DNA of 64,000 nt from Candidatus Neomarinimicrobiota bacterium (lineage in GTDB: Bacteria > Fidelibacterota > UBA2242 > B5-G15). The notes under the pieces are model-generated. The model had not been told where the DNA came from, did not search any database, and was given only the letters and a program-made list of their open reading frames with translations. The position numbers and the translations under genes are program-made. Shown here in pieces: positions 39,098-58,879 of the stretch; position 1 is the stretch's first letter; each line of letters starts with the position of its first letter. The stretch covers positions 124,001-188,000 of the forward strand of contig JACDNV010000001.1 in NCBI GenBank assembly GCA_017656425.1. The letters are read 5' to 3'.

Positions 39098-40387
39098 TTA
39101 GTAAGATTTGTCGAAGAAAAACTCAAACGGTAGTTGTCGGAAATATTTTAGCTTATTTGTAAAACCTGTGCGTTCTATACTCTTTACCTCAAACAGAGCT
39201 ATAAAATAATCGGGAACCTTATCATTTATTAACTTTATTTCATTTATAAAATCTTCCCTTAGATTAGCGTAGCTCAACATTCTAGTTCTTTCCAATCGAC
39301 CGGGATATCCAAAACCTGCAATAAACATAAATACCTCACCGGCCAGTCCTGGCATTTTTACCAGTAACGAATAATCGATGTTAAATTTATTTTTTTGTTC
39401 ATATGATGCCTGAAGCCTCGTATAAACCTGGAGAGTATCTCCACCATCATTCAATATAATTAACCTCTCTTCAGGATGATATTGAAATCTTATAGGTATT
39501 CTAAAAAACAATTTTTTAAGTTTTCTTAGATTCCTTAGTTCTCCAATATATATCATATTGTGTTTTTTTAAATCATCAAGTTTAATCTCGGAGGAGAGCT
39601 TTAAATCGACAGCATCGGTGAACTGATATAGAATAGGTAATAAATCCATAAGGTTATATATTGCCCCAAAGGGAACACCTGTTATCTCTGATTCCCACAA
39701 TTTTTCAGTGGGATACATTCTCAAAAACTCACTTAATTCTTCTTCAGAATTTATAGTCCAGTCCCTTACTTGCCTGTATCTATTCAATCTTTCATTGTAT
39801 TCATCCATCATAAAATCATCACCAATTACTATAATAATTGGTAGTTTATTCTCAAAAAAGCCTACCCAAATCGGATCATTCTTACTAACCACATGACGTT
39901 CCGGATATATTGATTTTTTACCCACTCCATAAAAAACCTTGAGGACCAGCGCAGAGTTTAATATAACCAGTAACAATATCAACACAACTCTGACATCTTT
40001 AAGTGGTTTAATAATTGAGGAAAGTTTTGATAAATAAATGTGTGGTTTATAGTAATATATTACTTCATATCTCCCCCTTGGTACTGATACACATATTTTA
40101 TCTCCCTTCCCTTCAGTCTCATAATACTTAGAAAGCTTCTTTCTTAAATTGTAAATGTGGTATCTTACTGTGGCGTCTTTATCAGAATTAAAGGAGGTGT
40201 CTTTACCGAATACATCAATTGCAATTGTCGTTTCCTTGGGGATTATATTTTTTAATGAGCATTCAACTAGATATTTTAAAAGCTCCTTATATTTTTTTGA
40301 TTCCTTAAATATTTCACTATTTAATATTTTGTTTAAAGCCTCAAGCTTCTCCTTTTTGGTAATCTTATCATTACTATTACCCATCAA
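39098..40387 (-). CDS. Membrane-anchored winged-helix regulator (ToxR-like topology)
   Basis: The first 100 residues match the winged-helix domain known from Acidobacteria and others: KYKELLKYLVECSL..., KETTIAIDVFGKDTSFNSDK, VRYHIYNLRKKLSKYYE, and SVPRGRYEV, which resembles an OmpR-type DNA-binding domain. A membrane helix follows (about 122-143; VRVVLILLLVILNSALVLKVF), then a domain of about 280 residues outside the membrane with no family that I recognise. This is a one-component sensor-regulator layout. It begins 51 bases after the GH2 stop on the same strand, at the end of the galactan gene run, and may be its sensor. Confidence 0.75.
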   Translation of the reverse strand: MMGNSNDKITKKEKLEALNKILNSEIFKESKKYKELLKYLVECSLKNIIPKETTIAIDVFGKDTSFNSDKDATVRYHIYNLRKKLSKYYETEGKGDKICVSVPRGRYEVIYYYKPHIYLSKLSSIIKPLKDVRVVLILLLVILNSALVLKVFYGVGKKSIYPERHVVSKNDPIWVGFFENKLPIIIVIGDDFMMDEYNERLNRYRQVRDWTINSEEELSEFLRMYPTEKLWESEITGVPFGAIYNLMDLLPILYQFTDAVDLKLSSEIKLDDLKKHNMIYIGELRNLRKLKKLFFRIPIRFQYHPEERLIILNDGGDTLQVYTRLQASYEQKNKFNIDYSLLVKMPGLAGEVFMFIAGFGYPGRLERTRMLSYANLREDFINEIKLINDKVPDYFIALFEVKSIERTGFTNKLKYFRQLPFEFFFDKSY

Positions 40388-40438: not shown

Positions 40439-42835
40439 TTATTTAACAACATTAAAATTTTTATCTAAAATAATTTCTCTTTTTATCTTACCGCTCTCAG
40501 CTCTAAGTATTAGATTCCCTTCAATTGTTGAAACTTCTAACAGGATCGTAGCAATACCAGCCTCGGCGTTTATTGGGTTCTTACCAATTAATTTTCCGGG
40601 GCCGATAACTTCAAACCTCACGGGTTTCGAATAATCAGGTAATACCATTCCATTTTTATCCTTTACTTCTGCATGGATAAAGAGTATATCTTTATTTCTA
40701 CCATCTGGTTTCCTTCCAGAAAAGTCAACTACAATATCAATAAAATGTGGATAACTGGGAGTTACTACTAAATGCTTTGCAACTTCAAAGCCGTCGATAT
40801 ATCCAATTGCTTCCAACTTCCCATGTACAAATCTTTCCAGTTCAAATATATATGGTGGATATTTAAGGTTTTCAGAAAACCCCTCCTCAAAGTGGAATTT
40901 TTTAATTTCCTTATTATTAAGTTTCAACCTTACACTATCACAGTTAGAAAAAACTTTAATAAACCTTTTTGAATTTTTATTCCAGAACGATGCAATAAAT
41001 ACGAAAGGCCTATAAAATTCAAGTTCATTAATATTAGGTTTCCTTTGGCTCCTATAGAAATTATAAACAAACTTTGGCAACCTAAAAATATCCATAACAC
41101 CTGACGACTCAATATCGTCAGAATATCCCCGATTATAATCGAACATTACCCAATTTGAACAACCAATAACATTCCAACCTCTAATATCATTAAATGCTTC
41201 CTGAAAATTCAATGCCTGTTGTAACAATCTTCTTTCTCCATCAGCCCTAAATTGTCGTGATGTCCTCTCCTCAGGTTTTAGATTCTTAAATTCGGGCTGC
41301 TTAAAGCCAGCATTCTGGGCATAATACTCCCAGTCACCATATTCAGCAATAAACATTGGTCTGGATGTTTTGTAATACTTCCAGTAAAAGGGTTTCCTTG
41401 CATGCTGACGTGCAGGTATAAATACGTCATAAACAGTATCCTGCCATCCAGCTGTATAACACTGACCCCCTGGATACTCCTCATGAGCTATCTGATGAGC
41501 CTTTTTCATAAATTCCACACTCATCTGCGACTCATTCAATGATGCCTCCCAGATGATTACACTCGGATGATTTCTGTCTTTTCTTATCATTTTTCTAATA
41601 TTATTTAAGCTTCTCTTTTGAAATACCTCATTTCCAAAAAATTGCCAACCCGGGATTGCATCCATTACAAGAATTCCCAATTCGTCGCAGGCATCGAGAA
41701 ATGCATCAGCCTGAGGATAATGAGACAAACGAACAAAATCAAAACCTGCCATTTTTATTTTATAGGCGTCTCTATAATGACAATTATCAGGAAGAGCATT
41801 ACCAATGTATGGATATTCTTGATGTCTATTGGTACCATTAATAAACATTTTTATTCCATTAATGAAAAATCCTTCTTTTAATATCTTTATATTTCTTATA
41901 CCAATCCTCGTTATTATCATATCTATTTTCACTCCGTCTTTCCATAATTCCGACTCCAAGTTATAAAGATGTGGATGATAGGGATGCCATAGTTTTGGGT
42001 TTTTAACTAACAGTGACTGAATAATATGCTCGCTTTCCCCGGGATTTAGGTCCACAGATTCCTCTTTGGTTAAAATAATTTTATCATCCTCATTATCAAT
42101 TAATTTCGTTACTAATTTTATTCTTTCTTTCTGTATACTTTCATTTCTTATATGTGTCTTAACCCATACCCTGGCTGAATCTTTACTTACGAAGGGATAC
42201 CGAACAAATATCCCCCCACCTGCAGGAATATCCTCAAAAATAGGATCCGTGATATGGATCTTATTCAATATATGCATTTTAACATTTCTGTATAAACCTC
42301 CGTAATAACAAAAATCCAGATATTTTAAAGGCTTGCCAGGTGGGATTTCAGGATTATCTCTGTTATCGAGCCTCACCGCTATAACATTTTCTTTGTCGAA
42401 ATAAATATCATCAGTTATATCGATTATGAATGGCAAATAACCACCGTAATTAGTAACTTTGTGCGCACCATTTACCCAGACATCAGCTACCTGCATTGCT
42501 CCCTCGAATTCTATAAAAATCTTATTGTTGTAATACTTTTTATCTATATTAAATTTTTTTCTATACCAGCATATCCCTTGCCATTGATTGTTAACAACAA
42601 GCGGTTCTATCTTCGGTGAATGTGGTAGCTCAACTGTCTCCCATTTACCATCGTCGAAATCAATACGATAAAAATTACTATCAATGGTATTTGTATCACA
42701 TCTAAAAAATTTCCACCCTTTATTAAAATTTACATCTCTTTTATAGTAACCATCAATAAAGTTTTTATTACAATTCATCAGTAATATCAGTTTTACCAAA
42801 AGTAAAATTGCTTTTGCTGATTTACAGACTTTCAT
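40439..42835 (-). CDS. Glycoside hydrolase family 2, beta-galactosidase-like lipoprotein
   Basis: The 798-residue product starts with a lipoprotein signal (LLLVKLILLMNC, Cys near residue 22). The GH2 layout is complete: N-terminal jelly-roll (GWKFFRCDTN, WQGICWYRKKF, GAMQVADVWVNG), Ig-like domain, and a barrel with MINGTNRHQEYPYIG at the entry. The acid/base Glu is in IIWEASLNESQM and the nucleophile Glu in FIAEYGDWEYY. C-terminal Ig-like domains follow (GKLIGKNPINAEAGIATILL). Given the galactanase next door and the Leloir genes, beta-galactosidase is the likely activity on imported galacto-oligosaccharides; other GH2 activities are possible. Confidence 0.87.
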   Translation of the reverse strand: MKVCKSAKAILLLVKLILLMNCNKNFIDGYYKRDVNFNKGWKFFRCDTNTIDSNFYRIDFDDGKWETVELPHSPKIEPLVVNNQWQGICWYRKKFNIDKKYYNNKIFIEFEGAMQVADVWVNGAHKVTNYGGYLPFIIDITDDIYFDKENVIAVRLDNRDNPEIPPGKPLKYLDFCYYGGLYRNVKMHILNKIHITDPIFEDIPAGGGIFVRYPFVSKDSARVWVKTHIRNESIQKERIKLVTKLIDNEDDKIILTKEESVDLNPGESEHIIQSLLVKNPKLWHPYHPHLYNLESELWKDGVKIDMIITRIGIRNIKILKEGFFINGIKMFINGTNRHQEYPYIGNALPDNCHYRDAYKIKMAGFDFVRLSHYPQADAFLDACDELGILVMDAIPGWQFFGNEVFQKRSLNNIRKMIRKDRNHPSVIIWEASLNESQMSVEFMKKAHQIAHEEYPGGQCYTAGWQDTVYDVFIPARQHARKPFYWKYYKTSRPMFIAEYGDWEYYAQNAGFKQPEFKNLKPEERTSRQFRADGERRLLQQALNFQEAFNDIRGWNVIGCSNWVMFDYNRGYSDDIESSGVMDIFRLPKFVYNFYRSQRKPNINELEFYRPFVFIASFWNKNSKRFIKVFSNCDSVRLKLNNKEIKKFHFEEGFSENLKYPPYIFELERFVHGKLEAIGYIDGFEVAKHLVVTPSYPHFIDIVVDFSGRKPDGRNKDILFIHAEVKDKNGMVLPDYSKPVRFEVIGPGKLIGKNPINAEAGIATILLEVSTIEGNLILRAESGKIKREIILDKNFNVVK

Positions 42836-42873: not shown

Positions 42874-45111
42874 TTATTTCAAAAACAGGATTTTTTTTGC
42901 TTCTATAATATTATTTGAAATAAAAGCAATCAAATACACTCCACTACTAACCAATTTGCCATTTTCATTTTTACCATCCCAGCTGATAACATACTCACCA
43001 CCGTTGTATTTACCTGTGACCAATTCCTTAACTATACAACCACTTAAATCAAATATATTTATAGTTACACTCGAATTTTCAGAAATATTATACTTTACAT
43101 ATACCCTGTTATTGAAGGGATTTGGATAAATATTCCTTATAGCGCATAGTTCTGCTTTCTCAACTTCAGACTTTACTCTATTATATCCGGGTTCATCAAA
43201 ATAGACCCAATGAAGGGTTGTATCATCTACTTGAGTTAGTAATGAACTAGTTATATCCAAACGACGTTTGTGAACATTTTGTTCTGCATAACCGTAATCT
43301 ATGTTTTCTATATAGAAGGAATAATTTAAACTGTCACCCGCTCTTAATCCTGATTTAGGAATATATAGAGTCCCAGACCAGAATGAACCATTATATACGC
43401 TATTCTCCTCTCGGTGTAAAAAAAAACTGGTTTTATTCCAGCTTAGCTGTCCGGATGTTATTGTAGAATCTCCCCTCAAACCAACCGGACCGTTCACCTC
43501 AGGATCAAAAATTCCACTTTTCATTAATTTTGCCAGATTAACCCGAAAAAAAATTGCCAAATAATTATCTTTTACCTCATAAGGCTTCCAGTACTGGGGT
43601 AATGCCTCACCGGTAGAATTATAGAATTGAATTGGTAAAATGGTATCATTTTCTCCTGCTATAAATATTCTTGTATTACCTTTTCCCTGAAAAGGCAGTA
43701 TCGGTCCTTCCCAACCCAATCTCAAATACGTAGGGTGATTCCTATCATAACCAGTCCAGAATTTATAAAGAAGTGTATCACCTGGCCTCATTTCAAATAC
43801 CACCTGCCAGTAATCACCCCCAATATTCTCCATAATAAGATCAGACTCAGAATCCCATGATAGTTTTCTTCCGTCAGGTAAAATATCCAGTAAACTGTTT
43901 TTTAATTCCCCTCTAACCTGGACAAAGTGATAAGGTCTGAGCGTATCATAATGAGTTGAAGTATTTAAACGCAACTTTACATTTATCTTAATAGTATCCT
44001 CAGGAATTTCTGAAAAAATATCAAGTGACTCTAATGCATTTCCTTTAAAATCAAAAAGAGCATTGTTTTCCCAGGCTGAACCAATGTTTGGTGTAGTAAT
44101 CCATGTTGGTGCCCAATAGATTACCCCAATTCCTTTTTTATTCTTGATATCCTTCACAATTGTAATCAGGTCCTTTAGAAACTTTGCCTGACCTTCAACT
44201 GTAGCAGGATAGCCACTATGCAATTGATTACTTGTGGAAACTATATTTCCAACTTTATCAGCATTATCTAAAGTCCATGGATAAGCAGTCTCTACGACAA
44301 TAATTTCTTTTTTATAGCGAACAGCCAGATCGTTTAGATTATATCTCAGGTCATTGAGGGTTCCATGCCACCATGGATAAAAAGATAATCCAATGAAATC
44401 AAAATCAACACCATATTTCATTAGATTATCGAAAAACCAGCGTGCACCTTTGTTATCACCGCCGCGATCAATATGGATCATTATTTTAATACTATCACTG
44501 CCCGGGCAGGCTTCTTTCACACCCCTAATTGCCTCCTCCAATAGAGCCGTAAATTTTTGCCATCGCTCAGGAGTATCATATGATCCTCCTACCCTACCAT
44601 CGGGCCATAAAAACCCCGGAGTGATCTCATTACCCACCTGGACAATGTCAGGCATTACTTTATTATTATAAAGACATGAAATTACATCACTGGTATAACG
44701 GTAAACACTATCTTTCAATTCCTCGAAAGACAAATTTTCCCAAGCTTTGGGCTTGTATTGTTTACCTGGATCAGCCCAGGTATCAGAATAATGAAAATCA
44801 AGAAGAAAATACATATTACGGCTTTTTATCCTCTTTGCCATGTAAATAACTTTCTCCAATGTATTGTAATTTTCACTGGGAGTATGCCATAATTTTAACC
44901 TTATTGTATTCATTCCATGATCTTTTAAAATATCAAGAGGGTCCTTAACCTTGCCACTATCTCTATAAGCCCCACCGTTATCCTCTACTTGTGGAATAAA
45001 AGAAACATCACCACCCTGAAAAAAAACTTCTCCACCGATCGCAAATGAAAAAAGCAAAATAGATATTAGAAAAACAGCGATATCACTTTTTAACAAAAAT
45101 ATACTTTTCAT
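42874..45111 (-). CDS. GH53 endo-beta-1,4-galactanase with glycan-binding-like module and sorting tail
   Basis: ATG 45111 is chosen over the longer frame from 45180 because AGGGGAATAAT precedes it and it yields a signal peptide (residues 1-27). Of 745 residues, about 28-370 form a GH53 domain, with WHTPSENYNTLEKVIYMAKR and LDFHYSDTWADPGKQ, acid/base E162 (VQVGNE) and nucleophile E274 (VVETAYPWT). GH53 enzymes are specific for beta-1,4-galactan or arabinogalactan I. Residues 376-645 are a module shared with the next protein upstream (MENIGGDYW, KFWTG, GWEGP, HWVYF). A C-terminal T9SS-like tail (IYPNPFNNRVYVKYN ... SSGVYL) ends the protein, so surface display or secretion is predicted. Confidence 0.92.
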   Translation of the reverse strand: MKSIFLLKSDIAVFLISILLFSFAIGGEVFFQGGDVSFIPQVEDNGGAYRDSGKVKDPLDILKDHGMNTIRLKLWHTPSENYNTLEKVIYMAKRIKSRNMYFLLDFHYSDTWADPGKQYKPKAWENLSFEELKDSVYRYTSDVISCLYNNKVMPDIVQVGNEITPGFLWPDGRVGGSYDTPERWQKFTALLEEAIRGVKEACPGSDSIKIMIHIDRGGDNKGARWFFDNLMKYGVDFDFIGLSFYPWWHGTLNDLRYNLNDLAVRYKKEIIVVETAYPWTLDNADKVGNIVSTSNQLHSGYPATVEGQAKFLKDLITIVKDIKNKKGIGVIYWAPTWITTPNIGSAWENNALFDFKGNALESLDIFSEIPEDTIKINVKLRLNTSTHYDTLRPYHFVQVRGELKNSLLDILPDGRKLSWDSESDLIMENIGGDYWQVVFEMRPGDTLLYKFWTGYDRNHPTYLRLGWEGPILPFQGKGNTRIFIAGENDTILPIQFYNSTGEALPQYWKPYEVKDNYLAIFFRVNLAKLMKSGIFDPEVNGPVGLRGDSTITSGQLSWNKTSFFLHREENSVYNGSFWSGTLYIPKSGLRAGDSLNYSFYIENIDYGYAEQNVHKRRLDITSSLLTQVDDTTLHWVYFDEPGYNRVKSEVEKAELCAIRNIYPNPFNNRVYVKYNISENSSVTINIFDLSGCIVKELVTGKYNGGEYVISWDGKNENGKLVSSGVYLIAFISNNIIEAKKILFLK

Positions 45112-45182
45112 ATTATTCCCCTGAAAAATATAGGCAGGGAGGTGACATCCAAAACAGTTCCTCCCATGCCAGCCAATCATAT

Positions 45183-47231
45183 TTACCTTATAAGGGTCAC
45201 CTTTTTAACAATACTCTTACCCGTCGTAGAAATTTTTACAAAATATATACCCGAGGGTAACAGCACACCTGAATCATTTCTACCATTCCATCTGAGAGCG
45301 TAGCTACCCGGAGAGAATCTATTATCAATTAATTTACGCACAACTCTACCCGTTATATCATAAACAATTATGTTAACTCTATCTTCTTTTCTCAATTCAA
45401 AAGCTATATTTGCAGAGGGATTGAATGGATTTGGGTAAATTGAATTCAAAGTGAAAGCTTCAGCAACAGCATTATCGTCAGAATCGATTGAAAATGGAGT
45501 CCAGAGATCAGGAGCTTCTTCTACAGGTAGATCACTATCCTTCCATTGTATAACGGGGAAGGAATAAGTATCTGGCCAGACAACTGTATCTTCAGCAACA
45601 GCTACTGGTCTAATATATTGGCAATAAGCTCTACCAAGAGTGAATCCTCCTCCATTTTCTATAACTCCACTCTCGCTTGAATATTGTATATGAAAACTCA
45701 CTTCAAATGTAGTAGGTGGTTCAAGATGCATAGTTCCCGAATATATTAGATCACCATCTGTATCGTTGAGCTGTATTCTTGAACCGTATATAGATAAACC
45801 CTGAGTTAACGGCATGAGACAACCTGTAAATGTTACCCATACGGTATCTGTCCCAGGTCTAAACAGGGGATTGGCAGGATTTGTTTCTTCACTGGTTGCC
45901 GGTGTCATGTCTACATTGAAGGTTATATCAATAGGTTCCTTAATTACACCTTCAGGCGGTAAACCGTTAAAGAAATTATATTCAAAGTCATAATCACCTG
46001 GGACGCTTTGATCTACGTCAGAGGTATAAGTATAATACCTGTTGCCTGTCCCTGTAACAGCGGGTTCTTCCCAATATTGAAGTAAATCTAATCCAGGAAT
46101 ATAATTTTCACTTTCAGGATCGATTCTTGATGAATCCCATAGAATGACATATTTATATTCAAGTTCTGCACCAGGTGCCTTTTTAAAATCAGACTGACCA
46201 ACAAAATATCTTAAAATTGGGTTATAAGTCATTCTTATAGCGTTGTCTATATTCCATCCACGTGCACCATCAATAACTATACTATCAATTGATCTATCAA
46301 AAAATCCAAGCATCTCCAGAGCTTTTATATTTAACTTCCAGGTAACAGTTGCCTCTACCAGATTTCCACCTGAGGGTGGAGTATCATTAAAATAGACCCA
46401 ATGTATCGTGGTGTCATTTAAACTGCTAAAAGTAAACCACCTATCGGATATACTTTCCCATATCTCACCACTACCAGATTTCAGGACGACAAATTTATAA
46501 CTCTGTGTTGTTGACCCAGGAGTAATGTCACTTACAGGTATGTAGGCAACTCCAGAATAGAACGATCCATTTAAAATGCTGCCTTCCTCACGGAATAGTT
46601 CAATATCCGTATCCCAATCTCCACCATTTGTGTCTATAGGAGCACCTCCCCGAACTACCACTCTGTCATTTTCAGGATCAAATTCTTCAGTTTCTATAAG
46701 TGCTGCTACATTGACTCTGAAATAAACAGCTACAGTATCTTCTTTTTCTATATATGGCCTCCAGAATTGATCCCGTGTTTGCTCGGTACCATTATAAAAC
46801 TGCACTTTTAAAACGGTATCTTGGTCTCCAGAGATAAAAATCCTGTTTCCACCACCATCAACCGGGTCAACGGGTGTTAGAGGACCTTCCCAACCATTCC
46901 AGAAAAACGTACCTGTTGAATTATCAAAACCTGTCCAGAATTTATACTTAAGAGTATCGTCGGGATTCATCTGGAAAGTAGCTATCCAATAATCCCCACC
47001 AATATTTTCCATTTGAATACCTTCACCAGGACTCCATGAAATTTGTGGATTCGTAGGTCCAGTACATTCTCCCAAAATCCATGCTACGTGATTTTCCGAC
47101 AAAGTGTCAAGGTTCGTTGAAGTATTTAAAATCATTGTTACATTAATGGTCTGGGCATCGAGCCCTGAAAAAATAAAGATCATAGTAATGCCCAGAACCA
47201 TCATCACCTTTAAGTTAAACTTTTCACTCAT
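45183..47231 (-). CDS. Surface glycan-binding-like protein (SusE/F analogue) with sorting tail
   Basis: ATG 47231 (MSEKFNLKVM) is preferred because GGAGGGCGTTAGA is immediately upstream; an in-frame ATG at 47246 overlaps that site. The protein has a signal peptide (ending LDAQ) and several beta-rich modules. Residues 28-295 repeat the module found in the GH53 enzyme (LNTSTNLDTL, MENIGGDYW, KFWTGF, GWEGP, TTIHWVYF). Two further segments (VTWKLNIKALEMLGFFDRSI and DITFNVDMTPATSEETNPAN) resemble starch-binding-like folds common in T9SS proteins. The C terminus is IYPNPFNPSANIAFEL ... LLPSGIYFVKIS. There are no catalytic motifs, so it is inferred to hold glycan at the cell surface. Confidence 0.75.
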   Translation of the reverse strand: MSEKFNLKVMMVLGITMIFIFSGLDAQTINVTMILNTSTNLDTLSENHVAWILGECTGPTNPQISWSPGEGIQMENIGGDYWIATFQMNPDDTLKYKFWTGFDNSTGTFFWNGWEGPLTPVDPVDGGGNRIFISGDQDTVLKVQFYNGTEQTRDQFWRPYIEKEDTVAVYFRVNVAALIETEEFDPENDRVVVRGGAPIDTNGGDWDTDIELFREEGSILNGSFYSGVAYIPVSDITPGSTTQSYKFVVLKSGSGEIWESISDRWFTFSSLNDTTIHWVYFNDTPPSGGNLVEATVTWKLNIKALEMLGFFDRSIDSIVIDGARGWNIDNAIRMTYNPILRYFVGQSDFKKAPGAELEYKYVILWDSSRIDPESENYIPGLDLLQYWEEPAVTGTGNRYYTYTSDVDQSVPGDYDFEYNFFNGLPPEGVIKEPIDITFNVDMTPATSEETNPANPLFRPGTDTVWVTFTGCLMPLTQGLSIYGSRIQLNDTDGDLIYSGTMHLEPPTTFEVSFHIQYSSESGVIENGGGFTLGRAYCQYIRPVAVAEDTVVWPDTYSFPVIQWKDSDLPVEEAPDLWTPFSIDSDDNAVAEAFTLNSIYPNPFNPSANIAFELRKEDRVNIIVYDITGRVVRKLIDNRFSPGSYALRWNGRNDSGVLLPSGIYFVKISTTGKSIVKKVTLIR

Positions 47232-47249
47232 TCTAACGCCCTCCATTTA

Positions 47250-48278
47250 CTACTTAATTAAAAATTCTATGGATAATCCCTCGACATCTGGTAAATGTTT
47301 CATATATTGGAATGAATATCCAATCTTTATCCCATATCGACTCAATCCAGTTAAATCTATATTTATTCCTACTGCCCTGCCCTTTTCACTATTCTCCAAA
47401 AATAATTCATTATTACCTGCACTCAAGTTTATGATACCATTGAACAAGTAAAATCCTATACCTACATTTAGATATTGGGAATTAAAATTTGGATTAACCC
47501 CTTCAATGGCAACCTGAAATCTGTTTGAACCAAATAAAATCTTTTGCCATGAAATACCTATCTTCATCGTCGTTGGTAAGTCAAAATAATCCGTCTTTAA
47601 CTCTGCCACGATATTATCATTGTTACCCTCAATTGTCGGTGCTACATCAACAAATGTATTGAGGTCTTCCCCTGTGATTCTCATTGCTGTACCAATATTT
47701 GTAATACTTACACCGAGTATTATCCCATCAAATGGTGTCTCAAACAACGTGCCTAAATCAATTGCTATATTTGAGGCAGAACAATTATATATCCTTTCAC
47801 TAATATATTTGATATTCGCACCAATGGAAAATCTATCAGTCAGTCTCATCGCATAAGCGAATCCAGCTGAAGAAAAGGTAGCAGAATAGGTTTCACCAGT
47901 TCCCCATTGGTTATTATAAGTTGTAATCTCGATATCTCCGGATCTCAACACTGTTCCATTCAAACCTATAACTCCATAACGTCCAAGAGGTACAATCGCA
48001 CTTGCATAACTAAAATCAAGAATAGATAACCATGGGGAATGGTAGAAATAAAGAGACTTACTACTAAAATTGGCTATACTTCCTGGATTCCAGTATATTG
48101 CTGAGCCATCGTCAGCAACAGAAACAAATGCTCCTCCCATCGATATAGCCCGTGTACCCACTGGTATATTTAAGAATGCAGCAGATACTGTTCCTATCTT
48201 TTTTACCTCTACCGAAAATATACTCTGTACACAAAGCGCTGTGATAATAAATAATGTTAGGATTCTACCTTTTATCAT
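47250..48278 (-). CDS. PorV/PorQ-family outer-membrane protein (UPF0164-like)
   Basis: The 342-residue barrel has a signal peptide (residues 1-22) and the family hallmark GTRAISMGGAFVSVADDGSAIYWNPGSIANF. The remainder alternates in beta-strand fashion and ends EGLSIEFLIK. In Bacteroidota PorV shuttles T9SS cargo from the translocon to the attachment complex; related proteins occur throughout FCB phyla, often next to cargo genes. Here it lies between two genes with sorting-like tails, which fits a dedicated partner for their surface delivery. That specific role is inferred. Confidence 0.85.
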   Translation of the reverse strand: MIKGRILTLFIITALCVQSIFSVEVKKIGTVSAAFLNIPVGTRAISMGGAFVSVADDGSAIYWNPGSIANFSSKSLYFYHSPWLSILDFSYASAIVPLGRYGVIGLNGTVLRSGDIEITTYNNQWGTGETYSATFSSAGFAYAMRLTDRFSIGANIKYISERIYNCSASNIAIDLGTLFETPFDGIILGVSITNIGTAMRITGEDLNTFVDVAPTIEGNNDNIVAELKTDYFDLPTTMKIGISWQKILFGSNRFQVAIEGVNPNFNSQYLNVGIGFYLFNGIINLSAGNNELFLENSEKGRAVGINIDLTGLSRYGIKIGYSFQYMKHLPDVEGLSIEFLIK

Positions 48279-48290
48279 TTCATACCCATC

Positions 48291-51200
48291 TTATTTTATT
48301 ATAGCAAACTTCCCAACTTTTTGACCTATTCCTGGAGCATCAATATGATAAATATATAACCCATATGATACATCAAGATTCTCCATACTGGTCAGATCCC
48401 AGATTTCCGTTCCATTATCAACTGTGGAATTGTGTTTTATTACATCTACCAATGTACCATCTACGCTATAAATCCTGATTGTACAAACGGGAGGTAACTT
48501 AATAAAATGTATTTCACGTGGTCCTCTCCCACTTCTGTAGGTATTCTTTGGTTCCCATGGCACTGTCGCAACATAAGGATTCGGCACTACTCTAATACTA
48601 TCGAGCGTTCTTTTAGCTAACTCTTTGGATAATGATGGCCCCTTAACACTGAATCTATAAACATCATATGATAAAAACGGTTTTTTCAGATAGATATTCA
48701 AAGTATCGCCAGGCCGTGGATTTCTCTTATTAGCTTTCGGCACAAGGAAAAATTGCCAGGTATAAACTAGATCGCCCGATATACTCTTTTCTAAGAATAA
48801 TATTATATCGGTCTCATCAGGATCGCGTGGGTTTACAGACAATCTACCATCCGATCCATCTAGTTCTGCAAAGGCAAATTCAATATCCTCACCTGTTGTT
48901 ATGTTTATAATTTTAAAATTAACATCAACGGCTGGTAGAGGTATTCCAACTATGGTTGTATCCTTCGAAGTTGAAATACCAGGCTCACCAATGATTATTC
49001 GGTAATCATATGGCATTTTTACTCCCTTAATTCCCGGGAAATTTACAGGGGCAAAATCATAGCCATATATATCATCGCTACTCCATCCTGACTTTTCCAG
49101 ATCTATTTCAATATTAGATTCATTTATAAAGGATAATTTTAATCCATCAAAAATCGGAATATCAGAATCGTTACCATACAAAACCCAATCATCAATTCTT
49201 TTTTCACCCTCAGATATATCTGTTACAGAGAAACTTTTAGTAATTGTCCTTGTCCCTTTCTTCTCAACAATTGTAGTATCGGTAAATGTTAACTCATATA
49301 TATGCCCTTCTCTTAATGCTGAATTATCTACAATGTCAATATTAATTATTCCCGTTGCACTTCCTCTTACATGTTCAAAATAATCAATTTCTGGCGGTAT
49401 ATATCCAGCTGCCTTTGACGTAGGCGTAACCACTGCCACATTTATACCGGTTCTAATATTGCCCTGTAAATCGATATCTACGCTAACAGGTGTCTCTGTG
49501 GGAGTTATATTTAGGGGTGCATACCCAAAGTCATAAGCTGTTACAGCGTAAAAATACCTCTGTCCATTCACAACACCGGAATCAACGTATGAATGCCTAA
49601 GTCCGGTATCATCCCCCAGATAAAAATGTATACCATTAAATCCAACCGGATCAAATCCTGTTATACCATCTTTTAAATCAAATTGTGCTATAGGTTTTAA
49701 AAGTTTTGGAGTACCAAATCCATCAGTTATCTTTCTTGCATCAAGAAATGAGGGATCAGTTGCTCTATATATTCTATAGCCTTCAAAATCCCTCCCGGGA
49801 CCACCAATGGACTCAATGTAATTATCTATTGAATACTCGGCTGCATCATCCCAGTAAAGCATTACTTTTCCATCACCTGGAACAGCTTTCAGAGTTACCT
49901 GTATTGGTGCTTTTGCAAATTGATAATCAGCATCATAAGCTTTCTTAGCATTCACAAGTTTATCTATAACAGCATTAATATCTTCATCCTTCGTCTGTCC
50001 ACCACCCGCAATTGCAATAGCAATGGCTATTCTTTGTCTCTGGCCTGGATCCATCGGGAAAAATCCTGAAGATATAAAGGTGTCATATTCACCTGTTGGT
50101 CTTGGTAAATCAAAATGACCCGGTACCATAAAATAATCCCATAAATATCTATCCGGTGTTGTATTCAGAGAAATATCGCCCACTGGAATCTGAACAGCAG
50201 ATGTCAGACCAATAAGGTCCGTTTCAGAAACATCGGTTTTATCTATATTGGGCTCCCCTGGCAATTCTGTACCAGCACCAGAGGACGCTATCCCATCTCC
50301 TTCCCCAGGATCTCCAGTTCCCTTTACACCATCCAGTCCAACATCATCGTTAGAGACATCCCAATCCCTGTCATTATCGAAACCATCATCTCTAGATTCA
50401 TCTATCATTGGAGCTACAGTTTCATAAGTGGCAGGGGTATTTTTCCCGGCAACCACAAAACCTCTTTTAATAGTATCACCCACATTGAAGTAAAGATAGT
50501 TTATGTATCTAACAGGACTTTCTGTACCCGATATCTCGTCATACCTCCACCTGTGAAGTGAATATCTTTCATCAATCAATCCATCAAGATCATCGTCAAG
50601 ACCGTTTGCAACTGTGTCTTCTTCAAGTGTTATCCCTTCTGCTGGTAAGTAATATACTTTTCCAAGGCTTTTTACAGTGCCACCACCTTCAGGGTAAGTT
50701 GTTATTATACGAGAAAAATCAGTTGAATCTATCAGAACAATTTTATCACCAGGTTTTAGACTCCGGGGGAGAAAATCGTTATCAGCGAAATGAGGTGAAA
50801 CAACTTCTGGGTCACCATTAATCATTGAAAGTAATTCCGGATGTTGATCCGAGTCACCATCATTATCTATTCCATCAACCTCATTACCAGGTGTCTCTAA
50901 AAACCTTATTCCCGCTACACCGACAGGATCACCACCAAATGCATCCATTCCTACCCGATCGGCATCGGTCAAAAATGCTATATCTGACTGGATGTCTACA
51001 AACGGTTGATCATCAGTCCCATCTCCGCCAACATAATCAGCCAGAAATATTAAAAAAGAAGTTTTAGGGATCCTCTTGGTACCATCATTCTTTATATCAT
51101 GGATAAAAAATACCACATCATTTATTAATACCTGAGTCCATGCTAAAGCACGTACATCAACCAGTATACCGAGACCCCTTCTTGTCAGGTCAGTTGTATC

Positions 51201-51781
51201 GGGATAATATTGATATCTATCATAACGGTCATCAGAGCAACGGTAAAACAATTCTTGATCAGCATTAAAAACATTTTTCCCAAAGTAGCCATTCCATGAT
51301 CCAATCCAGCCTGGATCAACTTTATCATCCCATTTATCCCTCCATCCTCCAATGGAAGCAGGTGGCCAGGTCTCAGGGTCATCACTTTTTGCTACTCTTA
51401 GCGGATCCAAATTCGGGTTTAAAAAACCTGGTACAGGTTCAAATGTCCAAGTCCTACCATCAGGGCTCGTCCTCCAGGCAAAAACGTCAACAATGTTTAT
51501 AGTATCGTTGTTTGCATCAACGACTTCACCTCCAACCCATATTCCAACAATCGAGATATAAATTCTTCCGGTATTCTTTGGCCATTCGTAATTTACTGAT
51601 TCCGGTACTTCACGTGTGCACCACTATATCCTGAATTAAATACTGAAGCTCTAATATTATTTCCATCTATGTTCGAATACGCTCTCAGGTTAGGATCTCC
51701 TCTTTGATCCGATGGGATATGTTGTCTAATCTGGGAAAAAATTATCACTGGCAAAAGCAAGAATATTATTATCTTTTTCAT
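48291..51781 (-). CDS. Large surface protein with Asp-rich calcium-type repeats and sorting-like tail (frameshifted near start)
   Basis: A signal peptide (MKKIIIFLLLPVIIFSQ) at 51781 leads into RGDPNLRAYSNIDGNNIRAS, then the frame stops at 51593. The downstream frame opens before that stop and reads VPESVNYEWPKNTGRIYISI, continuing without interruption to 48291, so a one-base change around 51609-51617 splits one gene. If unrepaired, the first internal start (ATG 51410) would lack an export signal. The body has EF-hand or thrombospondin-3-like stretches (EVDGIDNDGDSDQH, ANGLDDDLDGLIDE, DDGFDNDRDWDVSNDDVGLD), an Fn3-like segment near residue 670 and a tail beginning RVVPNPYVATVPW. Its neighbours are the TonB receptor and PorV, where it may take the place of SusD. 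Confidence 0.75.
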
Positions 51782-51809
51782 CTATTTCCCCATCACAAAC
51801 TTTATTACT

Positions 51810-54590
51810 TTAATAATAGAATTTAACTCCAAATTGAACCCTCCTTGGTTCTGAATAAAAATCAGGTCTTATAAACCAAGTAGGATCAGACTCAATAGCT
51901 TGATTTTGATAAACCGTATAATTTGGTTTTCCAGAATCAGCCCATACCTGAAGAGGATTTTTAGCATCAAATAGGTTGAATACCTGTAAAAATACTTCAA
52001 TATTGAAAATTTTTAAGTCGATCATTCTGTATGCATGTAGATCAAAAATTATCCTGAATGGTTTCCGTCTGATATTTGTTGAAAGACCTGGTATAACATT
52101 CTGCCCTGTGAGCGTGCCAGAGACTATTTCTGGCGTATACGGCTGTCCAGAGAAAAAGTTAGAAGATATACTTACACCATAATCTCTGGCTCCATAAAAA
52201 ATATTCCAATTCAAGGAATGTCTTTGATCCCAATCCAGATATGCAAGTTGTTTCTTTGGTTCAGCTCCCTGTGTAATCGCTAGATATTCATCTTCCGGAC
52301 TGGAATTTGTTCCTTTCGCTATTTGAAAAGTATAGTTAACGTTAAAACCGAAATTACCTATAACTTTATGGTTCAAATTTACGGAGAGCCCTTTCACAAA
52401 GGCAAAATCCTTATTAATTCGTTTAGAGTAGGATACGCCAGCTGAATAGGTTGGTATGGGAGGACTGGTCGAAACCCAATCACGAATGTCTCTATAATAA
52501 CCGGTAATATCCAGTACAAGATTTCTATAAATTTCCTGCCTGAGTCCTATTTCGTACATCGTCGTTTTCTGCGGATTAAGATCAGGGTTTCCAAAAGGTC
52601 CCGCTATACCCTGCCCCTCACTTAGTTTCATCTCATCGTTATAATATAGCTGGAAGAAATCAGGGATCTGTTCAAAAATACCATATGAAAAATGTATAAC
52701 CCCTTTATCCGTAATAGGATAAGCGATACCAAAACGTGGGCTTAAGAGTCTCTTTGGTTTAACCTTCCTATACCAGAATTTTTCTCGTTCCCCTATTGTG
52801 TATTTATTATCTTCAACCTGTTCAGAAAGATCTATAACATCATCACCATTCAAATCTTTGTATATATGTTCCAGCCTGAGCGGATTGTATATATTTGGAT
52901 CCTTTGGATCCACAGGAATTCTTCCATTGGAATTAAAGTACTCATACCTTAATCCAATATTAATAACCATAAATTCATATTCTATCTTGTCCTGTATATA
53001 AGCCGCTATCCTATCTGGACTCCTGTCCAGAATTATTCTATTCGGATTTGACTTTTCCGGTATCTCAGGAATAAATGGTTCAATTTGAACTCCATTTTCA
53101 TCAGTCGCAGGGATAAGTGTATACTCATCAAGATTTATAAAATCTTTCTGAAATTCAAATCCAAATTTCAATTGATGTCTGGTAGTTATCTGGCTTGTAA
53201 TATCGCATTTGATTATGTACGATTCCGTTTTTCTTGTTGATCTGAATAAATCTGTTCCAGCTTTAAAAAACTCATAAGCTCCTGCTGTTAACGAATCGGG
53301 ATGAACGTATAGAGAATCATAAGGATCATCATACAGCATGGATTTATTTTCATCGACTTTATATGAAAAAATTAAGTCCATAAAAGACTTTGAAGAAAAA
53401 AGGTATGTCAGTTTGGAAATTGTTGTAAATCCAAATCCTTTTGTTCCTCTTAGTCCTTTTGGATTTAATCTGTATTGATGATTATACCATCTGCTTTTAT
53501 ACTTATTTCCAATAAAATCAACCTTATAAACTACTGATTTCCCAATTTTCCATTCTATTGCCCCATGACCACTAAATCTATCCTGTGGATTCATGGCAAC
53601 AGGGCTGCTATCACCCTTCGCATGTATACCAAGAGAATCATCTATTACCACCCTTCCCTGAGGTAAATAGGCATATACACCATAAAGCCATCCCTCATTA
53701 TGGAGATTTCTTAAATTGAGATAGAAAGTCATTTTATTCCTAATAATAGGTCCGCTCAGGCTTAGCTGGACATTATTTATAGAAAAGGGATTAATTTTGC
53801 TTATATTATAAAATATCTCATCTTTATTACTTACATAATCTCCGGCATAAATTTCAACCTTTCCCTCATATTCATTACTACCACCTTTTGTAACAATATT
53901 CACTATTCCACCCATGGCATTTCCGTATTCGGCATTAAATGCTCCACTTATTACCTGTAATTCTTTCACAGATTCATTTTCCACTATAACAGTCTGTCCT
54001 CTATTATAATCATCAGTAACATTTACACCATTAACAAAATAAGCTACCTCTGACGATCGTCCACCACGTATATGTATGTTTCCACCAGCATCCCTAACAA
54101 TCCCCGGCTGTAAATCAAGTATTCTTCCGATATCGTTTGCAGGTATCCTAGATATATCATCAGATTGAATTCGAACTTCAGATGAGGTCAGATCTTTTCT
54201 TACCATAGGCTGCATACCAATCACATAAACCTTTTCACCCTCAACAATGCCCGGTTCTAGATTAAAGTTAACTTCAGTCGTCAAATCCGTATATACTCTC
54301 ACATTTTGCATGACAGCTCTTTTGTATCCGATGAAAGAGACTGAAACATTATATATTCCTGGAGGTACTCTTAAAATGATGTATCTACCCTCGTTATCTG
54401 TTGCGGCACCCAGATCTGTGCCATCGACTATTACATTTGCACCTGGCAGAGGTTTACCTGTCTCAGCGTCTCTGACAAAACCAGAAATTTTACCCCAGGT
54501 TTGTGCATTTAAACTTCCAATAAATGATGATATCAAAAATATTACTATAAAAATTTTGATAAAACTGGAAGCCTTATCGTTAAAACACAT
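51810..54590 (-). CDS. TonB-dependent receptor (SusC-like, with carboxypeptidase-like N-domain)
   Basis: This 926-residue receptor has a signal peptide ending LNAQ, then a CarboxypepD-regulatory-like domain (residues 33-115; ISGFVRDAETGKPLPGANVIV, GRYIILRVPPGIYNVSVSFI), a plug (about 125-240; DIGRILDLQPGIVRDAGGNI, IRGGRSSEVAYFVNG, YGNAMGGIVNIVTKGGS) and a 22-strand-type barrel ending VQFGVKFYY. The final Tyr is typical. It should import oligosaccharides using TonB-ExbBD energy. No SusD homologue is adjacent. It is 10 bases from the stop of the parvulin gene and 28 bases ahead of the large surface protein. Confidence 0.93.
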   Translation of the reverse strand: MCFNDKASSFIKIFIVIFLISSFIGSLNAQTWGKISGFVRDAETGKPLPGANVIVDGTDLGAATDNEGRYIILRVPPGIYNVSVSFIGYKRAVMQNVRVYTDLTTEVNFNLEPGIVEGEKVYVIGMQPMVRKDLTSSEVRIQSDDISRIPANDIGRILDLQPGIVRDAGGNIHIRGGRSSEVAYFVNGVNVTDDYNRGQTVIVENESVKELQVISGAFNAEYGNAMGGIVNIVTKGGSNEYEGKVEIYAGDYVSNKDEIFYNISKINPFSINNVQLSLSGPIIRNKMTFYLNLRNLHNEGWLYGVYAYLPQGRVVIDDSLGIHAKGDSSPVAMNPQDRFSGHGAIEWKIGKSVVYKVDFIGNKYKSRWYNHQYRLNPKGLRGTKGFGFTTISKLTYLFSSKSFMDLIFSYKVDENKSMLYDDPYDSLYVHPDSLTAGAYEFFKAGTDLFRSTRKTESYIIKCDITSQITTRHQLKFGFEFQKDFINLDEYTLIPATDENGVQIEPFIPEIPEKSNPNRIILDRSPDRIAAYIQDKIEYEFMVINIGLRYEYFNSNGRIPVDPKDPNIYNPLRLEHIYKDLNGDDVIDLSEQVEDNKYTIGEREKFWYRKVKPKRLLSPRFGIAYPITDKGVIHFSYGIFEQIPDFFQLYYNDEMKLSEGQGIAGPFGNPDLNPQKTTMYEIGLRQEIYRNLVLDITGYYRDIRDWVSTSPPIPTYSAGVSYSKRINKDFAFVKGLSVNLNHKVIGNFGFNVNYTFQIAKGTNSSPEDEYLAITQGAEPKKQLAYLDWDQRHSLNWNIFYGARDYGVSISSNFFSGQPYTPEIVSGTLTGQNVIPGLSTNIRRKPFRIIFDLHAYRMIDLKIFNIEVFLQVFNLFDAKNPLQVWADSGKPNYTVYQNQAIESDPTWFIRPDFYSEPRRVQFGVKFYY

Positions 54591-54600
54591 TTTCCACCAC

Positions 54601-56307
54601 TTAGTTAATATTTATCTTTTTTAATCTCTCCCAATTGATTATCAGTTCTATGTCAGATTTTAGCAATGTTAAGTAATTTCTAATTACCCTTTCCTTCCAG
54701 AAGGGCATCATGGTTTTATAAACCAAGTCTCTAACATCTTTAAAATTTGCTTCTTTTACAGGAATTTTATCATTACACCTGAAAAAGTAATATTTTCCCT
54801 GTATTGAAAAAGGTCCAACCCATTCTCCTTTATTTAAAGAAAATAAAGTATCAGCAAACTTTCCAAGATCATTATATCTAAAAATACCAATATAACCTCC
54901 ATTGACACCACTAACTCTATCCTCGGAATACTTTTTTGCTAATTCTTCAAAATCTCCCCCAGATTCAAGCATATTTTTAACTATATTTGCAGAAACCCTA
55001 TCTACTAAAGTTATTTTAGAAAGAGATATAGCAGGTGGTTTTATAAAAAGTTCCTTATTTCTTTTATAAAAAACCTTTAACGTATCTTCGGGTATTGGAT
55101 TAGATACAAGTAAATGATCCTTCATCCTTTCTAATAGATAGTTTTCAACCCGCTCTTTCACCATATTACGATATATCTTTGTATTATCAATTTTCAATCT
55201 AATAGCTTCCTTTATTAAAAACTCACGTATAATTAATCCGTTAATAAACTCCATGAGATTCTCTTTTGTCTTAATCCATCTTTTCTGTTTATCCCCGATA
55301 CTACCCACCCTTTCAAAAAACCACCTGATATCGCGTTTTCCAAGTTTACTCCAAAGTAGTGTTAGCCGCTTTTCTTCATGAGAGAGTTTATTTTCCCAGG
55401 CAATAAGAGGGTATTCTGATGTAAGGGGCTTTCTATTTTCAAAATTACCATTGAGTGCCACACTTCTTATAAGATTATATAAAAAATCCAGTGCTCTGGT
55501 GTTGTATTTGATGTTTAGAACCAGAAGTAATGAATCAGAGTAAATCCTTAGCATCATCCTTTTTTTTCTAAATAACAGATAATTATAAATCTTGTTTCGA
55601 CTCTTATTATACATATTCTCAGTTAAAAGTGGATTTGTAATTCTATCCTCAACTTTTATGATACTGTAACCGATAGCGGTTTTAACAGGTCCTGTTACCT
55701 TTCCAATTTCAGAGTTAAATGCAGCATCTTCGAACCACGGATCCATCTCACCTATGGAAAAATAACCTAAATCGCCACCATTAGATTTTAAAACAGGATC
55801 ATTAAAAGTCTGTCGGGCAATTTCTTCAAAGCTTGATTTGCCGCTTATTATTAACTCATACAATGAATCTGCTTCTTTCAAGGAAGGGGTAAATATATGA
55901 CGTGCTCTAATTCTCGTATTTATTCTCACAAAAAAATCTTTCAATTCTTCTTCAGAAATCTTTATTCCCGGAAAGATATATTTTTTCATATACAGGTCCA
56001 CCAGTGTTTGTTCTTCAATCTTCTTAATCTCAATCTTACTTAATGAGTCTGAATTCAACCCGATCCTTTTAGATTCTTCTATAAGTATTAATTCATCTAT
56101 CATTCTGTTCAACAAAGACCTACGTAATTCAAAATTATCAGATACTGAAAGATTAAATAAAATGTCTTTGTATCTTTTCACAAACTGGTCTATAGTGATA
56201 AAATTCTTATCTATTTTTTCTATCTTTGCTAAATACTCTTTTTTACTACCACAAGTTGAGACTAAAATGGTTATTAGAACAAATATGATAATTGATAAAA
56301 TTCTCAT
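54601..56307 (-). CDS. SurA/PrsA-like lipoprotein with two parvulin domains
   Basis: The frame also allows GTG 56316, but ATG 56307 gives a clean lipoprotein signal (MRILSIIIFVLITILVST then C). The first parvulin domain lies at about 135-235 (RARHIFTPSLKEADSLYELI, GGDLGYFSIGEMDPWFEDAA), the second at about 420-510 (SKITLVDRVSANIVKN, NGGYIGIFRYNDLGKF). SurA-type proteins escort outer-membrane proteins through the periplasm and isomerise prolyl bonds. It precedes the TonB receptor gene by 10 bases in the same unit, suggesting a chaperone for that receptor or for other cargo of the locus. The function is inferred by family. Confidence 0.85.
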   Translation of the reverse strand: MRILSIIIFVLITILVSTCGSKKEYLAKIEKIDKNFITIDQFVKRYKDILFNLSVSDNFELRRSLLNRMIDELILIEESKRIGLNSDSLSKIEIKKIEEQTLVDLYMKKYIFPGIKISEEELKDFFVRINTRIRARHIFTPSLKEADSLYELIISGKSSFEEIARQTFNDPVLKSNGGDLGYFSIGEMDPWFEDAAFNSEIGKVTGPVKTAIGYSIIKVEDRITNPLLTENMYNKSRNKIYNYLLFRKKRMMLRIYSDSLLLVLNIKYNTRALDFLYNLIRSVALNGNFENRKPLTSEYPLIAWENKLSHEEKRLTLLWSKLGKRDIRWFFERVGSIGDKQKRWIKTKENLMEFINGLIIREFLIKEAIRLKIDNTKIYRNMVKERVENYLLERMKDHLLVSNPIPEDTLKVFYKRNKELFIKPPAISLSKITLVDRVSANIVKNMLESGGDFEELAKKYSEDRVSGVNGGYIGIFRYNDLGKFADTLFSLNKGEWVGPFSIQGKYYFFRCNDKIPVKEANFKDVRDLVYKTMMPFWKERVIRNYLTLLKSDIELIINWERLKKININ

Positions 56308-56357
56308 TTTTCCCACGATTATTTCTTATAAATAAAATTAATAAAAATCTAACCATT

Positions 56358-56593: not shown

Positions 56594-58843
56594 TTATAAA
56601 AATATCAATACTTCGGAAGAACCACTTACAGTTATTGCTACTTTTACTGTCTTACTATTTTTATCGTAGCTGAATTCGACTTCATTATTGTTCACGAGAA
56701 CTTTATCTGGTTTTTTCCATACTCTCACAATTAATGACAGACTAACAGATAAATTTGGTAGCGAAATTTGAATTTTATCTATATAACTTTCCATCGATAA
56801 CTTTTTTTGGTTATCGTTATCAAAATAATCAACATATACAAAAGAACTTTTACCTTTTTTAGAAGGAACAGCAACTATTTCCAGATATTTACCCTCTTTT
56901 GACCATCTAATTGAATTCCCGAGGTAAATATTCCCTCTTGGAAAAATTGAATTCTCTCTAATGAAAACAGGAATCTCGTTAAGTGGAACGATAAAGCTGT
57001 ATCTGGTATTCCCATCATATTCTTTACTTAAATCATAGCTATACCATTTACCTTCCGGTAAATAAACTTTTCTGTATCCATCCTTATTTAAAACAGGGGC
57101 GACCAGAAATACGTTTCCGAACATATATTCATCCCAGATATTTGTGCAAGTAGAGTCATCAGAGAAAACATAATTTAACGGTTTCATCATTACACCATTA
57201 TCATAAGAAGTATTCACCTGTGAATAAATATATGGAATTAACTCCAATCTCATATTACACAGAGATCTGAATATATCCTGCAATCTCTTTGAATATTTCC
57301 ATGGCGGTCTATCCTCGCCTCTACCTCCAGCACCATCGATCTTTATTTCAAAAAGTCCACTCCAAGCTCCAAACTGTAACCACCTTACATATAATTCTTC
57401 AGGAATTCTACCCTCACCAAGATAACCCCCAACATCGCTACCCCAAACAGGAAACCCCATATAACTGCATCTTACAGCGTTTGCAAGATTGGAAGCCAGT
57501 CCATCCCAGTTACTTCTGACATCACCTCCCCAGACAGCGCTCAAATATGGCTGTACACGATGAAAAGCAGCTCTGGCAAAAATAAAATGATCTTTACCCA
57601 GATATTCCTGTGCAATCTCATGCTGGACTTTTGAATATAAATACAAATATTTATTTCTTCTTTCCTGCTCATGTGTTCTATCAAACCATGGTTCACTCAC
57701 AGGGAAATACTGCTCGCCTCTATCCATTTTATGTCCAGATACACCATATTTGTACTGATTATCATATAACCTCCTCTTATATTCAGTCACAGCAGCTGGA
57801 TTTGATAAGTCGAAATAACCAAAGAAATTCGGGAATAGTCCAGGGAATGAGGTATCACCAAATGTTGTAGTCGCCACCCATGTCATTAATCTTATGTTAT
57901 ATTTATTCCTTAGCTTAGCTATCCAATTCCCCGGATCGGCAAATTTATCATTAAAATCCATCTTCGACCACCCATTAGCACCATTACTGTATGGTCTATC
58001 CACCCACCATGCAGTTATAGGAATTTTCATATCAGTAAACTTATCAACATCTCTAAGTATTTCATTTGCCCCACCTTTATTTTCATCCCTCCATACAACT
58101 GGTCCACAAGCCCAAATCGGCACATACTTTGGTTTGCCAATGATATTATAATAAGAATTATGTATTTTATATCCTTCTGGACCATAGAAGACATACCAAT
58201 CAAGTTTACCAGTCTCATGGAATATCTTTGTCTCTCCCTCGATTCCCATGAAATATTTACCTTTTGCAAAGCTATCAAAAAATGAACCATAACCCTTACT
58301 GCTCATAAAAAATGCTGACCAGACTGAAGCATAATTTTCATAATATTTATTTCTGTTGCCACCTGCTTCGATATCAACAACTGTTCCTCGCAAATCAGCA
58401 AATTTCCTATTATCAGGATACAGAATCTCTATCAAACCATAGTAATGTTCACCAAAATCCACTAATTTGATTGTTATTGTAGTTGCCCAATCTGGATTTG
58501 AATAAAAATGTAAACCTCCTTTAATCCTATTTGTCAGTATTGTAGCGACAGGTGGTTCATCATTGCTTTCCATTAACCTGAAGTCGGAGTAAATGGGATA
58601 AGTACATTGGATCTGAAATGTACTATCTGATAAACTGTCTAGTGTAACTTCAACTGGATCAGCGAAATTAAAACTAAAAGATTTGATCACTATAAGCAAT
58701 CCACTTTTAGTATAGATTTTCAAATTTTTTTCTATCAGACTTACATGGAATTCATCATCACTCCAGGTATTATTTGCCATTAATGGTGTTAATACAATAA
58801 GAAAAATTAATAAGAGAAAATTACTTAAATGGAATTTTTTCAT
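56594..58843 (-). CDS. Glycoside hydrolase family 31 (alpha-glycosidase)
   Basis: ATG 58843 (MKKFHLSNFLLL) is chosen over an in-frame TTG at 58858, since GGGGCGATGCG precedes it and it yields a signal peptide ending LMA. The 749-residue product has a beta-sandwich N domain (about 30-240), then the barrel with IPITAWWVDRPY, nucleophile Asp in GHKMDRGEQYF and acid/base Asp in PVWGSDVGGYLGE, and C-terminal beta domains. GH31 covers alpha-glucosidase, alpha-xylosidase, alpha-galactosidase and sulfoquinovosidase, and I cannot choose among them. It is the last gene after galK and probably acts in the periplasm on a side-chain sugar. Confidence 0.9.
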   Translation of the reverse strand: MKKFHLSNFLLLIFLIVLTPLMANNTWSDDEFHVSLIEKNLKIYTKSGLLIVIKSFSFNFADPVEVTLDSLSDSTFQIQCTYPIYSDFRLMESNDEPPVATILTNRIKGGLHFYSNPDWATTITIKLVDFGEHYYGLIEILYPDNRKFADLRGTVVDIEAGGNRNKYYENYASVWSAFFMSSKGYGSFFDSFAKGKYFMGIEGETKIFHETGKLDWYVFYGPEGYKIHNSYYNIIGKPKYVPIWACGPVVWRDENKGGANEILRDVDKFTDMKIPITAWWVDRPYSNGANGWSKMDFNDKFADPGNWIAKLRNKYNIRLMTWVATTTFGDTSFPGLFPNFFGYFDLSNPAAVTEYKRRLYDNQYKYGVSGHKMDRGEQYFPVSEPWFDRTHEQERRNKYLYLYSKVQHEIAQEYLGKDHFIFARAAFHRVQPYLSAVWGGDVRSNWDGLASNLANAVRCSYMGFPVWGSDVGGYLGEGRIPEELYVRWLQFGAWSGLFEIKIDGAGGRGEDRPPWKYSKRLQDIFRSLCNMRLELIPYIYSQVNTSYDNGVMMKPLNYVFSDDSTCTNIWDEYMFGNVFLVAPVLNKDGYRKVYLPEGKWYSYDLSKEYDGNTRYSFIVPLNEIPVFIRENSIFPRGNIYLGNSIRWSKEGKYLEIVAVPSKKGKSSFVYVDYFDNDNQKKLSMESYIDKIQISLPNLSVSLSLIVRVWKKPDKVLVNNNEVEFSYDKNSKTVKVAITVSGSSEVLIFL

Positions 58844-58879
58844 TACGCATCGCCCCAACTTTGTCCTTTATTTATAGGC

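Follow-up and report, generated by a model that had tools for sequence, protein, structure and literature searches.

Why do a galactan-degrading enzyme and the non-enzyme encoded beside it carry the same module, and what would that module bind? The question is raised by a locus of Candidatus Neomarinimicrobiota bacterium (assembly GCA_017656425.1), within a 64,000-nucleotide stretch of contig JACDNV010000001.1 (positions 124,001 to 188,000 of the forward strand) referred to hereafter as the window. Two adjacent genes on its minus strand encode a glycoside hydrolase family 53 (GH53) protein (42874-45180) and a second protein, here called the neighbour (45183-47246). In the explanation that we favor, with a probability of about 0.62, the module is a tandem pair of domains of the type of carbohydrate-binding module family 20 (CBM20), a starch-capture cassette of this uncultured bacterium has been retargeted to beta-1,4-galactan, a galactan of plant type, and the binding pair has been copied into the galactanase.

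The module common to the galactanase and its neighbour

The original prediction, made from the sequence alone, held that the two proteins have a module in common, and BLASTP bears this out: residues 388-673 of the GH53 protein aligned with residues 25-301 of the neighbour with 124 identities in 293 residues (42%, 202 bits, E=1e-59). All of the anchor motifs that it listed are present in the same order in both, among them LNTST (residue 405 in the GH53 protein, 40 in the neighbour), MENIGGDYW (450, 79), KFWTG (473, 102), GWEGP (489, 118), FRVN (545, 176) and HWVYF (657, 282). A second BLASTP match (E=2e-16) corresponds to the type IX sorting tails. The residue ranges first proposed did mark the module, with numbers off by 23 and 5 residues because they had been counted from internal ATGs (M24 and M6); its boundaries are more likely at residues 397-663 of the GH53 protein and 33-290 of the neighbour. 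What had been taken for one 270-residue module is a pair of domains of ~125 residues each. The features of the two proteins are as follows.

44014-45018, minus strand: GH53 endo-beta-1,4-galactanase catalytic domain (aa 55-389); PF07745 E=2.7e-118, PDB 7osk E=3.5e-82
43600-43992, minus strand: GH53 protein, module domain 1, CBM20-type (aa ~397-527); BLASTP to neighbour E=1e-59, domain 1-domain 2 profile match 98.7%, E=4e-16; putative contacts W442, K473, W490
43192-43572, minus strand: GH53 protein, module domain 2, CBM20-type (aa ~537-663); W581 kept, K and second W replaced by S621 and A632
42889-43131, minus strand: GH53 protein, type IX secretion sorting tail (aa 684-764); PF18962 E=6.3e-7, TIGR04183 E=6.6e-9
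46773-47150, minus strand: neighbour domain 1, CBM20-type by profile homology (aa 33-158); W71, K102, W119
46377-46745, minus strand: neighbour domain 2, CBM20-type (aa 168-290); W211, K251, W263; Pfam CBM_20 E=9.8e-9, above cut-off
45972-46355, minus strand: neighbour domain 3, CBM20-like by profile (aa ~298-425); hhalign to domain 1 E=3e-13, to domain 2 E=1.3e-12
45567-45935, minus strand: neighbour domain 4, divergent, weakly similar to domains 1-3, without the W-K-W triad (aa ~438-560); hhalign probability 51-90%
45198-45440, minus strand: neighbour, type IX secretion sorting tail (aa 603-683); PF18962 E=4.2e-10, TIGR04183 E=7.9e-12

The GH53 catalytic domain is complete (profile positions 2-340 of 340). 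The neighbour, as read from its sequence, has three recognisable copies of the module domain, then a divergent fourth domain and then the sorting tail; a Pfam scan found no catalytic domain in it, in agreement with the catalytically silent partner originally proposed. Both proteins end in the C-terminal sorting domain (PF18962 and TIGR04183) of type IX secretion cargo. About 80 stretches of the whole genome match this tail, suggesting a large predicted type IX secretome of a Neomarinimicrobiota-like genome. A search of the 2.8 Mb genome found two copies of the module, both at this locus. The same two proteins occur in a named Neomarinimicrobiota metagenome-assembled genome (MAG), where the neighbour is 96% and the GH53 protein 91% identical.

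Profile and structure comparisons both point to CBM20. Domain 2 of the neighbour scored 35.4 bits against Pfam CBM_20 (cut-off 23.3), and the same model was matched by 56 of 69 module relatives at E<=0.1 (best E=6e-13). In the GH53 protein of the window the Pfam scan found no CBM match, CBM_20 included. A profile of domain 2 only gave 29 PDB matches (RNF213, STBD1, glucoamylase, cyclodextrin glucanotransferases [CGTases] and an alpha-amylase with such a domain), all of which we take to bear CBM20. The profile of domain 1 alone gave no significant match in PDB; hhalign shows it to be a homologue of domain 2 (98.7%, E=4e-16), and domain 1 of some relatives (e.g. locus L045) matches CBM_20 above the cut-off. 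Profiles were needed for the module, as a PDB search with the single neighbour sequence matched the sorting tail only.

When a moderate AlphaFold model of the neighbour was searched with Foldseek, the top single-domain match was the CBM20 of STBD1 (8x8k; TM score 0.77 on the target, 3.0 A). The CBM20 of RNF213 followed at 3.2 A, CGTases ranked too, and the close single-domain PDB matches were CBM20 domains only. The top ranks for the full-length model (multi-domain Ig-like and other repeat proteins) were disregarded, with TM scores of about 0.1. On this model the domains appear to have the beta-sandwich fold of starch-binding domains. By these comparisons both module domains are CBM20-type, a known kind in an unusual setting, and the carbohydrate-binding role foreseen in the original prediction is well supported.

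Relatives, cassette and history of the module

Module relatives were found in 21 of 100 kin genomes, in 34 of 82 genomes from the phylum of a KSB1 MAG and in 49 of 296 from the phylum of a BMS3Abin03 MAG; the viral contigs searched contained none. We took 77 loci with their flanks, 72 of which hold the module by the profile used. Fifty-three of these have a GH13 amylase without GH53, eight GH53 only, one both, and ten neither, some of the last group ending at contig ends. Representative GH13 calls were confirmed with Pfam.

The module protein comes fourth in a conserved cassette, after a TonB receptor, a protein of >1000 aa without a Pfam match and a PorV-like protein. Among the 73 module proteins without GH53, 66 have PorV directly upstream (several exceptions lie at contig ends) and 64 are preceded by the >1000-aa gene. 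This arrangement and the GH13 context make the module protein part of a mostly amylase-linked cassette, and it is because the cassette family mostly accompanies amylases that we speak of a retargeted starch cassette. At loci L012, L013, L039-L053 and L119-L177 the cassette lacks SusD and mostly stands beside GH13 amylases. In some Neomarinimicrobiota a maltose-type ABC transporter adjoins it. Several loci of the KSB1 phylum have a ~640-aa GDSL-lipase/TPR protein between the module protein and the enzymes (L120:9281-11215, L127:5116-7050).

Inside an enzyme, the pair was seen in GH53 proteins only, and no GH13-module fusion was found among the sampled loci. Nearly all GH53 loci have both the GH53 copy and the neighbour, and this pairing of enzyme and silent partner is also conserved in KSB1 and BMS3Abin03, two other lineages. 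The CBM20 pair is doubled within one protein at L130 (L130:1125-4904) and L146 (a 1236-aa open reading frame) and occurs in two neighbouring proteins at L178; the copies are close on the tree, which suggests recent duplications.

In a maximum-likelihood tree the ten GH53 copies and eight GH53-linked neighbours formed one clade (support 95/92), nested within the amylase-linked family. A ninth GH53-linked neighbour, from the locus with both GH53 and GH13 (L120), grouped with amylase-linked modules. The GH53 copy of L013 grouped with the neighbours. We do not claim two separate captures by GH53, since the approximately unbiased (AU) test did not reject a single origin (p=0.33); one and two transfers into GH53 are not distinguishable.

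The predicted binding site, the locus and the putative ligand

In the alignment of domain 2, the lysine and second tryptophan of a W-K-W triad fall on positions of the glucoamylase CBM20, and the first tryptophan does so too, with STBD1. The lysine between W543 and W590 of glucoamylase we take to be a binding-site residue. Among the residues with which that CBM20 binds its ligand are W543 and W590, and W590 belongs to the first site (PMC3398936). Domain 1 of the module aligns to domain 2. It carries the triad in 82 of 84 modules (8/8 GH53-linked neighbours, 9/10 GH53 copies and 65/66 others), or 17 of the 18 modules in the galactan branch, and domain 2 carries it in 8/8, 4/10 and 60/66, respectively. 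KFWTG and GWEGP were considered as galactan-specific motifs and rejected, being largely present in amylase-linked relatives from the KSB1 phylum as well.

The genes around the two proteins run in one direction (LacI, sodium symporter, GalM, GalK, GH31, peptidyl-prolyl isomerase, TonB receptor, >1000-aa protein, PorV-like protein, neighbour, GH53, GH2):

62760-63770, minus strand: LacI-family regulator; PF00356, PF00532
61143-62747, minus strand: sodium:solute symporter; PF00474 E=3.5e-58
60147-61121, minus strand: aldose 1-epimerase/galactose mutarotase (GalM); PF01263 E=2.7e-40
58880-60145, minus strand: galactokinase (GalK); PF10509 E=3.1e-16; NF003472 E=2.1e-49, below equivalog cut-off
56594-58858, minus strand: GH31 glycosidase, no substrate assigned; PF01055 E=1.9e-45, no NCBIfam equivalog above cut-off
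54601-56316, minus strand: parvulin-type peptidyl-prolyl isomerase, recurrent first cassette gene, at the same position in relatives; PF13616 E=9.7e-31
51810-54590, minus strand: TonB-dependent receptor with carboxypeptidase-regulatory N-terminus; PF00593 E=4.9e-23, PF13620; TIGR04056 E=1.5e-21, below its cut-off
48291-51410, minus strand: large cassette protein without a Pfam match; 1039 aa as read, against 1172 aa in KSB1; ~60 N-terminal residues encoded upstream in another frame
47250-48278, minus strand: PorV/PorQ-family outer-membrane protein, directly upstream of the neighbour; NF033709 E=1.9e-39
40439-42835, minus strand: GH2 beta-galactosidase-like enzyme; Pfam GH2 domains; GalA E=3.5e-94, below equivalog cut-off

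The simplest reading of GH53, GH2, GalM and GalK together is a locus for beta-1,4-galactan. No GH13 turned up among its scanned genes and no SusD (PF07980) at the locus; the one SusD match in the whole genome is on another contig. The >1000-aa gene is split (window 51600-51790 and 48291-51410), whether through an error of assembly or because this genome carries a broken copy; in relatives it is a single open frame of ~1170-1300 aa. We make no structural claim for its product because the AlphaFold predicted local distance difference test (pLDDT) score was 29. Beside GH2, a 429-aa protein (39098-40387) without a Pfam family resembles, by eye, a regulator anchored in the membrane whose N-terminal part is winged-helix-like.

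With galactan as the ligand suggested by this context, the neighbour would be displayed on the cell surface beside its own TonB receptor and would work like a SusE/SusF surface glycan-binding protein; in the GH53-linked branch, the W-K-W residues of its domains would form the aromatic face that holds beta-1,4-galactan. The enzyme's own pair might keep the galactanase on the chain during cutting. Fragments would enter through the TonB receptor and be finished by GH2, GalM and GalK.

Several observations weigh against this explanation. In the GH53 copy of the window, domain 2 has lost the lysine and one tryptophan (to S and A), so that domain 1 should carry the predicted binding there. The galactan branch and the amylase-linked modules closest to it were not cleanly separated by any binding-site column, and the sequence therefore gives no explanation of a ligand switch. 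GH53 enzymes without the module occur in the phylum of the KSB1 relatives, which indicates that GH53 function does not require it. The model of the neighbour is moderate (mean pLDDT 63.7, predicted TM score 0.35). Because no residue accounts for the switch, the main rival is retained binding of alpha-glucan (starch or glycogen). On this view the module came along with the cassette and still serves for attachment to mixed substrates or to storage glucan in detritus from plants or algae, and GH53 finds galactan by its active site. CBM20 families are classed as starch-binding (PMC6243121), the galactan branch keeps the starch-contact triad without change, most module relatives are amylase-linked, and at L120 a GH53-linked neighbour module sits with the amylase-linked branch. 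We nevertheless consider retained alpha-glucan binding unlikely, given the lack of GH13 among the scanned genes of the locus, the grouping of all 18 other GH53-linked modules in one clade, the pattern that a change of specificity along with the enzyme would produce, and a pair copied into GH53 and never seen in GH13. There is also precedent for such a shift: in starch synthase III of Arabidopsis, the starch-type CBM53 modules show about twofold better binding to xylan and pectin than to starch (PMC6243121).

Less probable still, the module would take no part in glycan binding and would serve as a structural spacer or docking piece, keeping the GH53 protein and the neighbour together or at the TonB/PorV complex. 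DUF1735 proteins of Bacteroidota polysaccharide utilization loci (PULs) have been proposed as spacers (PMC11216935), the lack of the triad in domain 4 and in the window's GH53 domain 2 would suit such a role, and so would the coexistence of both proteins; against it stand the almost invariant triad of domain 1 and the mapping of the domain 2 triad onto CBM20 positions of STBD1 and glucoamylase. In favor of the undescribed galactan-specific family of the original prediction, domain 1 alone had no significant match in PDB and the GH53 protein had no CBM match in Pfam. Such a family now seems very improbable, as domain 1 is homologous to the CBM20-type domain 2 and in some relatives is itself recognised by CBM_20, and as most relatives lie beside GH13, those tied to GH53 being one branch only.

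The retargeting explanation can be extended, tentatively and with somewhat less than even odds, to a general proposal: CBM20-type domains, regarded as alpha-glucan binders, would have come to bind beta-1,4-galactan in a SusD-free cassette that fills the role of SusCDEF in Neomarinimicrobiota, KSB1 and the BMS3Abin03 group and whose target can be altered by an exchange of enzymes and binding domains. A literature search of limited coverage found neither this cassette nor a galactan-binding CBM20 described. If galactan binding were shown, a textbook starch-binding fold would be extended to a beta-linked galactose polymer, and the amylase-linked and GH53-linked modules, with the same contact triad, would form a natural series for learning how specificity shifts. 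The conserved cassette would suggest a possible route of glycan uptake in three groups with few cultured members, and would enable annotators to identify loci missed by PUL finders that seek SusCD pairs.

Comparison with known systems

The module resembles the CBM20 domains of glucoamylase, CGTase and STBD1 in profile, in predicted fold and in the W...K...W...R motif of the first binding site. It differs in that its domains are ~25 residues longer than is typical, stand in tandem both in a GH53 enzyme and in a protein without catalytic function, and are linked here to galactan genes rather than starch genes. CBM61 of bacterial GH53 galactanases is an accessory domain attached to GH53, as is our module; the module profile matched no galactan-binding module in PDB, only CBM20 proteins.

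Like SusCD importers, the cassette has a TonB receptor with a CarboxypepD-type N-terminus beside glycan enzymes. The receptor scored far below the cut-off of the SusC model TIGR04056 (76 vs 368 bits), the position of SusD is held by the >1000-aa protein without a Pfam match and the PorV-like protein, and the locus lacks the SusC/SusD gene pair of a canonical PUL. The neighbour differs from SusE and SusF of Bacteroides PULs in its CBM20-type domains, in the locus without SusD and in having a type IX sorting tail instead of a lipoprotein anchor; since it is not a lipoprotein of a SusCD locus, it may work like SusE/SusF rather than be one of them. Like those proteins, it is non-catalytic and multi-domain, has its gene downstream of that for a TonB receptor within a glycan locus, and, by analogy, presumably acts on the same glycan as the adjoining enzymes.

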